From positions 62,001 to 126,000 of the forward strand of contig JABAQT010000037.1 in NCBI GenBank assembly GCA_019187195.1: 64,000 nucleotides of DNA. The letters run 5' to 3'. Within the stretch, counting starts at the first letter, position 1. Every line of letters begins with the position of its first letter. This document shows positions 37,895-41,999 of this stretch, piece by piece. The notes beneath the pieces are model-generated. The model saw nothing but the letters and a program-made list of their open reading frames with translations, ran no database searches and was not told the DNA's origin. The stretch comes from Bryobacteraceae bacterium (GTDB taxonomy: Bacteria > Acidobacteriota > Terriglobia > Bryobacterales > Bryobacteraceae). Position numbers and translations under genes: made by a program.

Positions 37895-38118
37895 ATGGTT
37901 TTATTTTCTCCGCAAGCAAAAAATTATCGCAATCTTCGAACGCCGTGCGGCGGCGGGCGCGGGCGAAGCCACGCGGCATTCTATATACTATTTTTTCAGC
38001 CATTTGCGGATTAGCGACAGGCCGATTGGGAGGCCCACCTGTAACAGTTGCGGCTCCTGGTTCACTATCCAGTTGGCGGAAGAGCTTATTTCACCGTTAA
38101 AGGAAGCCAGCGACACTG

Positions 38119-38745
38119 ATGACCCATGCCGAAGCGAAAGCGCTCGGAGCCGTCGAGAAATACCTTCTGAATGAACTGTCGCCAGATCAATGCGACGAGT
38201 TTGAAGAGCATTATTTTGTCTGCCGGCAGTGCGCCGAGGAAGTGGAGGTGTTGTCCGACACGGTAGAGGTGATCCGCAAGGGGGTATCCGTCAATCCACC
38301 GAAAGCGGGGGGCGGGATATGGCGCCTTCTCGACCGGCCCATTGCGGCTCGCATCAGCTACCTTTGCGCGTTGGGGCTCGCGGCGATCGTGGCCTACCAG
38401 CAGGCTGTGACACTTCCGCGATTGAGGGCGGAACTCGACCAGCCGCAAGCGGTTTTGAAACTGACTCCAAACGTGCAACCCCGGGGAGCGGCCGGCCAAT
38501 TCCAGTTTCTCGAGATACCGGTCCGGTTCCAGCCTGGGTTCGCATCGTACCGGGTGGATTTCATGAATAGCAACGGCCGGGTCATCCAGCAGCGGCTCTT
38601 TGCAGCGCAACAGGCGGAGGCAACCGAAACGCTGATCTGGCCAAACCGTCAGGGGGTCCGGGGGAAGGTTCAGATCCAGGTGTACGGATTGAATGCGGGG
38701 TTCGCGCCCCAACACCTGGAAGACGTTACATTCTATATCCCATGA
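38119..38745 (+). CDS. Zinc-finger anti-sigma-like membrane protein
   Basis: A 208-residue protein with an N-terminal putative zinc finger of the anti-sigma type: Cys25, His31, Cys35 and Cys38 in SPDQCDEFEEHYFVCRQCAE. A single membrane segment (about 79-94, YLCALGLAAIVAY) separates this cytosolic part from a periplasmic beta-rich domain of about 110 residues. Anti-sigma factors of this type usually follow an ECF sigma gene, but none is present upstream. A sequence resembling a -10 box, TATACT, lies at 37984-37989 without a clear -35. Its stop overlaps an ATG of the next frame, so it heads a three-gene unit. Confidence 0.72.
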   Translation: MTHAEAKALGAVEKYLLNELSPDQCDEFEEHYFVCRQCAEEVEVLSDTVEVIRKGVSVNPPKAGGGIWRLLDRPIAARISYLCALGLAAIVAYQQAVTLPRLRAELDQPQAVLKLTPNVQPRGAAGQFQFLEIPVRFQPGFASYRVDFMNSNGRVIQQRLFAAQQAEATETLIWPNRQGVRGKVQIQVYGLNAGFAPQHLEDVTFYIP

Positions 38746-38765
38746 TGAAACCTCGAGGAGGAACG

Positions 38766-39578
38766 ATGGTCCCATCCACGTTCTTGTACCGCGGCCATGC
38801 GGCCGTTATCGGAGGGTCGTTACGGCGGCCGGTCTCCAAGCCCATAAACGGCGCGGCGGCGAGCGTCTTGACGCACGCGGGTGGATTTCATTCGAGCCGC
38901 GTTCAGAACTATGATTTGGACAATATTGTGAAGTTCACGCTGGGGACGACGGAGGTTTCCGGAAGCCGGGCGGCGGATGGCTCCTACGCGTGCTACGTCT
39001 CCGCCGTCGTCGAGAACCTCAATGTCTATAACCAGGTGACGGCGGACCGCATTGCCGGACATCTGAGCAGCCGTCTGGAGAAAGATGGCGCGGAGATGGA
39101 GATTCTGTCTTTCGGGACGATGTTTACGAACCTGCGGATCGGCGGGGTGCCGGTGGAACCCCAGTTGGCGCACGAACTGTTCGGCAGGTTGAAGACGCAT
39201 GGGGCGTTTCTGGACGCCTGGCACAACACGGAGCACTCAGACCACGCGGCGCTGCGATCGGCCGTTCGCAAGTGGTACCACAGCCCGGAGGATGAGAGGG
39301 CCGAAGAGGCCGCGGGGGCGCCGATCCTGCCGCAGCGGATGACGCGCGACGGGATGGTGAGAGCCAGCCTCTTCAACGGATTCACAAGCGAGCCGGGTCA
39401 CGTGAAGCGGACGGGATTCGAAATCACCCTGCCGAACTTTGGAACCATCATCCTGGCGGAGTTATTCATCGGGAAGGATACGCGGCGGTTGAACATGCTG
39501 CGTTTGAAGATGGGCTCCCCGGTGGAGGGAGACATGGACGTAGCGGGGCTCGATCTGAACGGATCACTCTACCCCTAG
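38766..39578 (+). CDS. Unrecognised protein between anti-sigma-like and CHAT genes
   Basis: A 270-residue protein with no recognised domain. The first 45 residues are Ala/Gly/Ser-rich without a clear signal peptide. The rest is beta-rich, with DNIVKFTLGTTEVSG, YACYVSAVVENLNVYN and GFEITLPNFGTIILAELFIG, resembling an exterior ligand or cargo domain. The ATG at 38766 is chosen because a strong AGGAGG site lies just before it; two earlier ATGs (38742, 38745) overlap the previous stop but lack such a site. It precedes a CHAT lipoprotein gene by 27 bases. Function unknown. Confidence 0.7.
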   Translation: MVPSTFLYRGHAAVIGGSLRRPVSKPINGAAASVLTHAGGFHSSRVQNYDLDNIVKFTLGTTEVSGSRAADGSYACYVSAVVENLNVYNQVTADRIAGHLSSRLEKDGAEMEILSFGTMFTNLRIGGVPVEPQLAHELFGRLKTHGAFLDAWHNTEHSDHAALRSAVRKWYHSPEDERAEEAAGAPILPQRMTRDGMVRASLFNGFTSEPGHVKRTGFEITLPNFGTIILAELFIGKDTRRLNMLRLKMGSPVEGDMDVAGLDLNGSLYP

Positions 39579-39605
39579 GGCGGCCGGCGCTATAGAATGT
39601 AACCG

Positions 39606-41999
39606 TTGCGCCGGGCCGTACTTTTCGTCTCTCTACTGCTGCTTTCCGCCTGCGGAAGGAACAGTTGCGAAGCGCTCTACCGGCAGGCAAGCCGGGACTA
39701 CGCGGCGGGGGAACTTGCCTCGGTCAGCGCGTTTCTGCAAGCGGGGTTGAAGAAGCAGTGGACGCCCGCTTGCGAATGGCGCCTGCGTCTGCTGCTGGCC
39801 GATGTGCTGGGCGCGCTGCGGCGGATGGAGCAGGCGCTGGATGTCCTCGGGGACCGGCCTCCCGATGAGTCCATGGGGAAGGAAGCCGCATTCCGTTACC
39901 GGATGCTGAGGGGATACTCACTCGCCTTCATCAGGGGGCCGGAGGCAGGATTCGCCCTGCTCGAGGAAGCAGCGGGGATCGCGCGGGCGGAGGGTAACAG
40001 CGGCTGGGAGGCGGACGCGCTGCGCCGGTTGGGAAACCTGAACTTTTTGACGCAGAGGACGGAGGAGGCCGGGAAGGACTTCCATACGGCATTGGCAAAA
40101 GCCATCGCCGCCGGAGACGAGCGCCTGCAAAGCGAGATTTACGGCAGTCTCGGCTTTTTCTACTTCCAGCATGACCGCATGGCGGAAGCGGCGCGCTATT
40201 TCGAGAGATCCATCGAAATGACGCGGAAAACGGGGAACGTTTTTTACGAGGCGAAGACGCGCGGCAATCTGGCGCTTGTGTATCTAACGTTCGGCGAGCC
40301 GCTGGCGGCGCTCAAGGAATTGCAGTTCGCCGAAAGGGTGGCGCGAGAGAAGGGGCAGACGGACGACCGGCTGCGGTGGCTGCTGAACCTGGGCAACGTG
40401 CAGTACAACCTGCGCCAATACGGAACCGCGGAGAGCTACTACAAGCAGGGACTCGAGATGGCGGGGAACAATCCCGACGTGGCCGCGTCGTTTCTGACCG
40501 ATCTCTCGCTCGCCGTGCTGCGGCGCAAGGATTACGACGCCGCGGAGGCGTACATCGCACGGGCGCGCGCGATGCGGGAGAAGGCGGGAGGGGACTTGCG
40601 GTTCACCATTCTGACCGAAGCCGAAATCGCGCACGCGCGGGGAGACGTTGAGAAAGCACGGCGGAAACTCGCATCACTGCTCGAACGGAACACCCTGCCG
40701 CCGCTGCTGCGGATGCAGGTGGAATCGGAGTTGGGGAGCGTTTTTGAAGACATGAGGGACGCGGCGCGCGCGGAACAGCACTACCGCAATGCGCTCGAAT
40801 CGGGCGCGCGGGCGAAGGCGACCCTCGCGTCTCCATCGGAGAAGGTGCGGTTCGCGGGGGTGTTGGAGTCAGCCTACCACCGTTATGTTCGCTGCCTGTA
40901 CCGCGAGGGGAAGCTGGACAGGGCGCTGGCGGCGACCGAGATGAGCCGCGACGTGGAGCGGGAGGGGCCGGAGCCCACGATGCGCGCGCGGACGCTGCAA
41001 GAGGCGGCGAGACGCGAAAACGCCGTCATCCTCAGCTACTGGCTCGATGCGGAGGAGTCCCTGGTGTGGGTGATCACGTCGAGCGCCGTGAGAGTGCGGA
41101 GCCTTGGGCCGCGGAGAGAGATCGAAGAACTGGTGGAGAAGGCGAGCGAGGAGACGTATGGAGTTCGCCGGAGCGCGTACAGCGCGGCCGCGCGGCGGTT
41201 GTTCGAGGTTCTGGTGGAGAATGTGCTCCCCCCGGAGAATCGCAAAGGACGGTTTCTCGTGACCGCCAACGGAGCTCTGGCGTACTGGAACATGGAAGCC
41301 ATGGTCGCCGGTCCGGCTCCACACTATTGGATCCGTGAGGCGAGTGTGACCTATGTCCGCAACCTGCGTTCACTGCTCAGGCGGCACGCCGAACGTCCGC
41401 GGCGAATCCGGGCGCTGATCATTGGAAACCCCACATCGCCGAACGCGGAGTTTCCGGCGCTGCCTCACGCCGGCGAAGAGGTGGCGGCGGTGCGGAAGGC
41501 GATCGAGGGAAGCGGGGAGGTCACCGTGAAGGAAGGACAGGACGCCACCGTGGATGCTTTCAGGAATGCAAACCCGGCCGGCTACGACTACGTGCATTTC
41601 GCTTCCCACGCGCTATCGAGCAGCAGCGAGCCGCTCGAATCAGCATTGATCCTGAGCCCTTCCGGTTCCGGGTTCAAGCTGACCGCGGGAACCATTCTGA
41701 GGACCCCGTTGCATGCGCGGTTGGTGAGCCTCGCCTCCTGCCGCAGCGCCGGGGAGCGCGTGACGTCGGGAGGGCTGGTGGGCCTGGCATGGGCATTTCT
41801 CGAAGCCGGAGCGCAGTATGTGGCGGCGAGCCTGCGCGATGTGGACGACGCCGCCTCGCGTGAGATGTCCACGCGTCTGTACGAAGGCTTGAGCAAGGGG
41901 CAATCACCGGAGACGGCGCTGCACGCGGCCAAGGTGGCGATGCTCGAAGGGCGGTACGGAGAACCGGTGTATTGGGCTCCCTGGATCCTGTTGCGCTAG
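39606..41999 (+). CDS. TPR-CHAT domain lipoprotein, caspase-like
   Basis: A 797-residue protein. A lipoprotein signal ends at Cys16 (VSLLLLSACG). Residues about 20-450 are tetratricopeptide-type helical repeats (NSGWEADALRRLGNLNFL, EIYGSLGFFYFQHDRMAEAARYF in part, RWLLNLGNVQYNLRQYGTAE). The CHAT peptidase domain fills about 540-797, with the catalytic His668 in DYVHFASHAL and Cys712 in LVSLASCRSA. The dyad is intact, so a cysteine protease of the separase/caspase clan is likely. The start is a TTG right after an in-frame stop; no other start is possible nearby. The lipid anchor places it in the envelope. Confidence 0.87.
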   Translation: MRRAVLFVSLLLLSACGRNSCEALYRQASRDYAAGELASVSAFLQAGLKKQWTPACEWRLRLLLADVLGALRRMEQALDVLGDRPPDESMGKEAAFRYRMLRGYSLAFIRGPEAGFALLEEAAGIARAEGNSGWEADALRRLGNLNFLTQRTEEAGKDFHTALAKAIAAGDERLQSEIYGSLGFFYFQHDRMAEAARYFERSIEMTRKTGNVFYEAKTRGNLALVYLTFGEPLAALKELQFAERVAREKGQTDDRLRWLLNLGNVQYNLRQYGTAESYYKQGLEMAGNNPDVAASFLTDLSLAVLRRKDYDAAEAYIARARAMREKAGGDLRFTILTEAEIAHARGDVEKARRKLASLLERNTLPPLLRMQVESELGSVFEDMRDAARAEQHYRNALESGARAKATLASPSEKVRFAGVLESAYHRYVRCLYREGKLDRALAATEMSRDVEREGPEPTMRARTLQEAARRENAVILSYWLDAEESLVWVITSSAVRVRSLGPRREIEELVEKASEETYGVRRSAYSAAARRLFEVLVENVLPPENRKGRFLVTANGALAYWNMEAMVAGPAPHYWIREASVTYVRNLRSLLRRHAERPRRIRALIIGNPTSPNAEFPALPHAGEEVAAVRKAIEGSGEVTVKEGQDATVDAFRNANPAGYDYVHFASHALSSSSEPLESALILSPSGSGFKLTAGTILRTPLHARLVSLASCRSAGERVTSGGLVGLAWAFLEAGAQYVAASLRDVDDAASREMSTRLYEGLSKGQSPETALHAAKVAMLEGRYGEPVYWAPWILLR

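Follow-up and report, generated by a model that had tools for sequence, protein, structure and literature searches.

Probable parts of an ECF sigma switch in an acidobacterial locus with a TPR-CHAT lipoprotein

Three adjoining genes on the plus strand of a 64,000-nucleotide stretch from a Bryobacteraceae bacterium (assembly GCA_019187195.1, contig JABAQT010000037.1, positions 62,001 to 126,000; below, the window) encode a transmembrane zinc-finger protein (ZAS), a beta-rich middle protein (MID) and a lipoprotein with TPRs and a CHAT domain (TPR-CHAT, or CHAT for short) (Table 1). The open reading frames (ORFs) lie where a first-pass annotation, made from the sequence alone, had placed them; there they were seen as one unit around an anti-sigma-like protein, without a sigma factor and without an output that could be named. 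What, then, would these genes control? Comparison with relatives indicates that the locus is very probably most of a four-gene switch built on an extracytoplasmic function (ECF) sigma factor, with the sigma encoded in trans in this genome.

A four-gene operon in Acidobacteriota

In Acidobacteriota, the usual operon has four genes in the order ECF sigma, ZAS, MID and TPR-CHAT lipoprotein. Within the family of the window, MID occurs in 81 of 200 genomes by a single-sequence search and in 91 of 200 by a profile. The first-pass annotation had taken the three genes as belonging together, and they do travel together: the order ZAS-MID-CHAT is kept in 38 of the 38 family loci fetched, contig ends aside, and constitutes one conserved unit. 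When named genomes are scanned with the CHAT alignment, 80 loci emerge in Bryobacterales, Acidobacteriaceae (Edaphobacter, Granulicella, Acidicapsa), gp2, gp5, gp7, Sulfotelmatobacter and Thermoanaerobaculia, most of them with the full sigma-ZAS-MID-CHAT arrangement. In a second family, the Acidobacteriaceae, MID is present in 82 of 250 genomes; all 40 loci fetched there (several of which duplicate earlier ones) contain sigma, ZAS and MID, and 39 also CHAT. Across the phylum MID is patchy (17/297 genomes). Among the papers searched, none combines a CHAT domain, an ECF sigma and Acidobacteria.

Some loci depart from these trends. A full operon is present in an assembly labelled Luteimonas panaciterrae (L168, NZ_JAJAVH010000008.1), by contamination, mislabelling or transfer. 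Related sigma-ZAS pairs with a nearby CHAT gene and no MID (L139, L141, L142, L138) suggest that sigma, ZAS and CHAT are associated more widely within the same family. In two strains of Edaphobacter lichenicola (L159, L180), the operon is rearranged, with ZAS behind CHAT or on the opposite strand; the promoter described below still precedes ZAS.

Table 1. Features of the locus, with positions in the window
Feature	Positions	Strand	Remarks
ZAS, probable transmembrane zinc-finger anti-sigma	38119-38745	+	208 aa; zf-HC2, conservation, AlphaFold2 model, Foldseek
MID, choice-of-anchor-P-like beta-rich protein	38742-39578	+	278 aa; NF040603, AlphaFold2, hydropathy; ORF overlaps that of ZAS by 4 bp
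TPR-CHAT lipoprotein, presumed peptidase	39606-41999	+	797 aa, TTG start; PF12770, conservation
Predicted promoter of cognate ECF sigma	38040-38068	+	-35 TGTAACA, 16-bp spacer, -10 CACTAT
ZAS Arg122 codon, candidate CHAT cleavage site (Arg-Gly)	38482-38484	+	conservation, low-confidence linker in model; putative
Lipobox Cys16 codon (LLSAC) of TPR-CHAT	39651-39653	+	homologue alignment
CHAT Glu625 codon	41478-41480	+	Gln in the clade with ZAS Arg122 changed to Trp/Tyr
CHAT catalytic His668 codon	41607-41609	+	conservation
CHAT catalytic Cys712 codon	41739-41741	+	conservation

The displaced sigma factor and its predicted promoter

The absence of a sigma factor is local. We did not observe an ECF sigma gene beside ZAS-MID-CHAT, and the sigma profile matches none of the ORFs of the 64-kb window; a sigma remnant next to ZAS, sought with the same profile, was rejected, as none was found. 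A sigma of the family found at the front of the operon in most relatives is encoded at another place in the same genome (G000, at C68:3-446), with an E value of 2.6e-52, the next best sigma of that genome being at 2e-19. Against NCBIfam, the sigma family gives general ECF matches only. A related ECF gene was seen upstream in 25 of the 38 family loci at first pass, and the profile built from these raised the count. Among the 91 MID-bearing genomes of the family (by profile), 70 have the sigma linked, 17 have it at another site and 4 gave no sigma match, with the provisos that contig breaks may account for some of the 17, that the counts are uncorrected for phylogeny and that one of the 4 (G064) is a false negative (L065). 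Over the 200 family genomes, 87 have both MID and sigma, 4 MID only, 18 sigma only and 91 neither (Fisher odds ratio about 110, again uncorrected for phylogeny).

The same split occurs in the two closest genomes (G143 and G195) and in G164. Their operons likewise have no neighbouring sigma, and the sigma orthologue stands at the same syntenic place with no ZAS, MID or CHAT beside it. Directly behind this stand-alone sigma comes the promoter and, at the usual distance, a normal ZAS start, ATGGACCA(C/T) (that is, ATGGACCAC or ATGGACCAT), followed by a stop or by unrelated sequence. We read the stand-alone sigma, promoter and ZAS stump as the old head of the operon, left in place after the rest had separated. 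In the lineage of the window the sigma would thus act, if at all, in trans.

The promoter emerged from a gapped-word search upstream of the sigma genes, which gave a two-box motif that was scanned on both strands. It is of ECF type, TGAAACG-N16-CACTAT, points into ZAS and ends about 16-30 bp before the ZAS start. An initial reading of the motif as ATAGTG...CGTTTCA was rejected: it had been derived from sites directed away from sigma and gives the real promoter on the opposite strand. Just upstream of ZAS, the motif occurs at a score of at least 15 in 55 of 92 non-redundant loci and in 0 of 363 control windows, an independent test because the matrix came from other sites. Promoter sites also precede the sigma-less operons L036, L037, L064 and L069, and, over 20 genomes, the exact pattern has 62 sites against 5 for the reversed pattern. 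The variant of the window (TGTAACA-N16-CACTAT) lies 50 bp before the ZAS start and is, by position weight matrix, the second-best site in the window; G143 and G195 have identical boxes with a partly diverged spacer. We infer that the sigma recognizes TGAAACG-N16-CACTAT, and an autoregulatory loop in which it drives ZAS-MID-CHAT is strongly indicated. The output thus has, in this genome, both a candidate sigma and a recognizable target promoter ahead of the anti-sigma gene.

The displacement of the sigma, the divergence of the promoter box to TGTAACA and the reduction to a stump, in relatives, of the ZAS copy beside the orphan sigma could also be the marks of decay, the operon having lost its sigma, the orphan sigma serving other genes and the three genes being remnants. 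Against such decay, the active-site, zinc and lipobox residues are all intact, MID is 84-86% identical in the two closest genomes, the promoter boxes there are unchanged despite the changes in the spacer, and the sigma is retained in four genomes with the split. We consider decay improbable.

Behind other sites of the motif lie genes for DUF2278 proteins, a subtilase with VWA, phosphoesterases, a peptidoglycan-binding-domain protein (a site common to three genomes) and a DUF4384 protein; as possible members of a regulon, these are leads. The proteins of the DUF2278, phosphoesterase and subtilase-VWA kinds behind exact sites (L228, L246, L253, L269, L270) are mostly without an obvious signal peptide, and a common export route is possible. 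In the window's own genome, a promoter-like site (G000:C16:14482-14510; L275, L284) stands 23 bp before the gene of a peptidoglycan-binding-domain protein (119 aa, no signal peptide); ahead of the orthologous genes in G143 and G195 the boxes are identical and the spacers have diverged. On contig C89 of the same genome (L054, L230), a second CHAT protein of 1051 aa has a zf-HC2 gene nearby, and the exact TGAAACG-N16-CACTAT motif stands there ahead of an 83-aa zinc-finger protein. Ahead of the sigma gene, the motif often occurs a second time, directed away from sigma and toward a divergent gene (L170, L178, L184, L190, L205 and others).

Topology of the three proteins and the candidate cleavage site

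ZAS matches zf-HC2 (PF13490, E 5e-5). The zinc finger of the first-pass annotation (Cys25, His31, Cys35, Cys38) stands for its last three residues, which are kept in 111 of 111 ZAS homologues. Cys25 is ruled out, with Arg or another residue there in nearly all homologues; the alignments give His3 as the fourth ligand (107/111, the remainder being gaps), and the site is His3-His31-Cys35-Cys38. In the AlphaFold2 model, a zinc-finger helix bundle is followed by a transmembrane helix (about 75-106), a low-confidence stalk and a domain at 131-207 that is FN3/Ig-like by Foldseek. According to this model, the bundle is predicted to be cytoplasmic and the FN3/Ig-like domain periplasmic. With the ZAS-family anti-sigmas of the RsrA, ChrR and RslA type, the protein shares the Hx3Cx2C zinc motif; it differs in its transmembrane helix and FN3-like periplasmic domain and does not reach the thresholds set for the curated RsrA and anti-sigma equivalog models. 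In all likelihood, ZAS is an anti-sigma factor.

The third protein has TPRs and a CHAT domain (PF12770, E 2e-49). Its N-terminus, like those of its homologues, is hydrophobic with a lipobox, unlike the N-termini of MID; Cys16 is Cys in 101 of 117 homologues, with gaps or start-site misalignments in the others. His668 is kept in 116/117 (one gap) and Cys712 in 115/117 (two gaps). The description as a TPR-CHAT lipoprotein with an intact dyad is therefore borne out, and relatives have not lost the dyad; the protein is a presumed peptidase. Separase aligns weakly with the CHAT family near the catalytic Cys and the LWDVxD motif.

For MID, the earlier statement that it contains no known domain is true of Pfam, which gives no match, but a family exists: MID matches NCBIfam NF040603, choice-of-anchor P (29.5 bits against a curated cut-off of 27), as do 29 of 39 MID homologues at E <= 0.01. 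On this evidence MID appears to be a distant member. Choice-of-anchor P proteins are secreted, with a sorting anchor. Contrary to that expectation, hydropathy reveals no hydrophobic export segment in the 39 MID N-termini. The AlphaFold2 model is confident (predicted local distance difference test, pLDDT, 90.6), and neither sequence nor fold has a match at E < 1e-3 to solved (PDB) or viral structures, Csx30 included where solved; compared with these libraries, the fold is possibly new. The idea of MID as a Csx30-like inhibitor was rejected on this comparison. MID may instead begin at 38766 rather than 38742, an ATG behind a GGAGG-like site (GAGGAGGAACG); the same codon is Lys in G195.

Which protein would the CHAT domain cut? 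The first-pass annotation had offered either neighbour. If MID were cleaved, it could carry the signal inward, as when Csx29 cuts Csx30; in Craspase, too, the substrate is a neighbouring small protein, and the MID gene stands between ZAS and CHAT in almost all loci. However, MID has no export signal and the CHAT lipoprotein is outside, so that the inner membrane probably separates the enzyme from MID and cleavage is topologically unlikely; MID is, in addition, unlike Csx30 or any other solved structure in fold and sequence. We regard signalling through MID as a poor candidate, and MID as a CHAT substrate of any kind as equally doubtful. From the topology of ZAS and the lipobox, CHAT can reach the ZAS stalk and probably not MID, and the stalk near Arg122-Gly appears the likelier target.

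In the stalk, the outstanding conserved feature is Arg122 followed by Gly, Ala or Ser, with Arg in 85 of 96 non-redundant homologues. In one clade of Acidobacteriaceae, Arg122 is replaced by Trp or Tyr and, exactly there, Glu625 of CHAT is Gln (121 R-E and 21 W/Y-Q pairings, with 0 R-Q and 0 W/Y-E). Among 24 CHAT columns that are nearly invariant, 625 is the only one to change in that clade. Separase cleaves after Arg. The pairing is only suggestive because some loci are duplicated and the two changes are a single event on the same branch of the tree, which rules out multiple independent origins.

The proposed switch would work as follows. Without stress, sigma would be bound in the cytoplasm by the zinc-finger domain of ZAS. 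The TPR part of the outer lipoprotein would sense an envelope ligand or damage, upon which the CHAT domain would cut the ZAS stalk near Arg122-Gly (site-1 cleavage). Further membrane proteolysis would free sigma to transcribe its own operon and a small regulon. MID would be a cytoplasmic accessory of the switch.

Several points weigh against this scheme. Cleavage of ZAS by CHAT is predicted from sequence comparison. The single event at Arg122 and Glu625, together with a few other loci that lack Arg122 yet keep Glu625, means that Arg-Gly may be structural. The switch leaves the role of MID unexplained. The C68 sigma of the window's own genome is cut by the contig end, and that genome has only 3 matches to the motif versus 2 for the reversed control; the regulon there therefore rests on the comparison with relatives. 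Finally, we could detect no sigma in G188, which has the operon in an assembly that is 87% complete.

These points leave room for another way of signalling, in which TPR-CHAT would bind the FN3-like domain of ZAS and alter its exposure to a general site-1 protease, the peptidase acting on other envelope substrates or in maturation only. The TPR region is large, the FN3-like domain is a typical interaction module, and Gly persists where Arg is Trp or Tyr, as a structural Arg-Gly would allow. Yet practically all homologues retain the His and the Cys, which suggests that catalysis is needed in the operon, and signalling by binding seems to us rather unlikely. That the window contains those parts of an ECF sigma switch that sense and inhibit, with the sigma of the switch elsewhere in the genome and CHAT cutting the ZAS stalk, is the best explanation, and we give it about an even chance; for the single step in which CHAT triggers the release of sigma by cutting ZAS, our confidence is somewhat below even.

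Relation to known sigma and CHAT systems

The closest functional precedent for a CHAT protein acting on a sigma inhibitor would be Craspase. In the type III-E CASP system, an ECF sigma is inhibited by Csx30, which the TPR-CHAT protein Csx29 cuts (PMC10028731). In both systems the gene of a TPR-CHAT protein stands with those of an ECF sigma, a sigma inhibitor and one more small protein (in type III-E, Csx29, CASP-sigma, Csx30 and Csx31). In the acidobacterial operon, by contrast, the protease is an envelope lipoprotein, the inhibitor is a probable zinc-finger membrane anti-sigma and MID is not Csx30-like. CHAT itself is only weakly like Csx29 (E 0.41, with a CHAT-only profile against PDB, the full TPR-CHAT profile being swamped by TPR matches). 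No Cas7-11-like gene or CRISPR part was noticed on inspection of the ORFs around the operon, and none of the operon proteins matches a Cas protein; no search of the whole genome was aimed at such genes. By this precedent, topology and family, a lipid-anchored CHAT protein acting on a membrane anti-sigma is plausible.

CHAT proteases are common in abortive-infection and defence systems such as gasdermin or Craspase modules, and one could take the operon for one of these. The usually single copy, the long vertical retention across the phylum and the lipoprotein location speak against it, as do PADLOC, which matches only the TPR (three operon proteins and one sigma scanned), and the adjoining ORFs, among which no CRISPR or gasdermin-like gene was noticed by inspection. 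We hold a defence role to be very improbable.

In RseA/DegS/RseP and RsiW/PrsW/RasP, a single-pass anti-sigma with a cytoplasmic sigma-binding and a periplasmic domain likewise brings an envelope signal inward; the candidate site-1 protease here differs in being a neighbouring clan-CD CHAT lipoprotein with TPRs and not a PDZ serine protease or PrsW. The ECF54 group also has CHAT-domain neighbours, with subtilase and carboxypeptidase ones, and a proposed proteolytic control; it is described without an anti-sigma (PMC8999054), whereas the acidobacterial operon has an anti-sigma gene directly after that of the sigma. For HetF, CHAT, transmembrane and TPR domains are described (PMC8406250); HetF and separase share the CHAT fold, and the acidobacterial protein differs from them by its TPR-CHAT part behind a lipobox and by the lack of a heterocyst or cohesin context.

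Acidobacteria rank among the most abundant phyla of soil. Classically, a serine protease or a metalloprotease releases a membrane anti-sigma; CHAT proteases are so far known from CRISPR signalling, from cell death and from the division of cyanobacteria. Tentatively, the operon may be a phylum-wide envelope stress switch in which the CHAT lipoprotein would be a dedicated site-1 protease whose Glu625 recognizes an Arg in the stalk, the cut falling behind that Arg. MID would be a cytoplasmic partner, apparently of a new fold, and in one lineage the sigma would have split off to work in trans. The promoter, the candidate cleavage site, the candidate specificity residue and the named hosts (Edaphobacter, Granulicella, Acidicapsa) make the model directly testable. 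If it is true, a lipid-anchored extracytoplasmic protease of caspase/separase type, co-encoded with a sigma and an anti-sigma, would tie CHAT proteases to ordinary envelope signalling, and type III-E CASP may draw on a broader sigma-CHAT theme.

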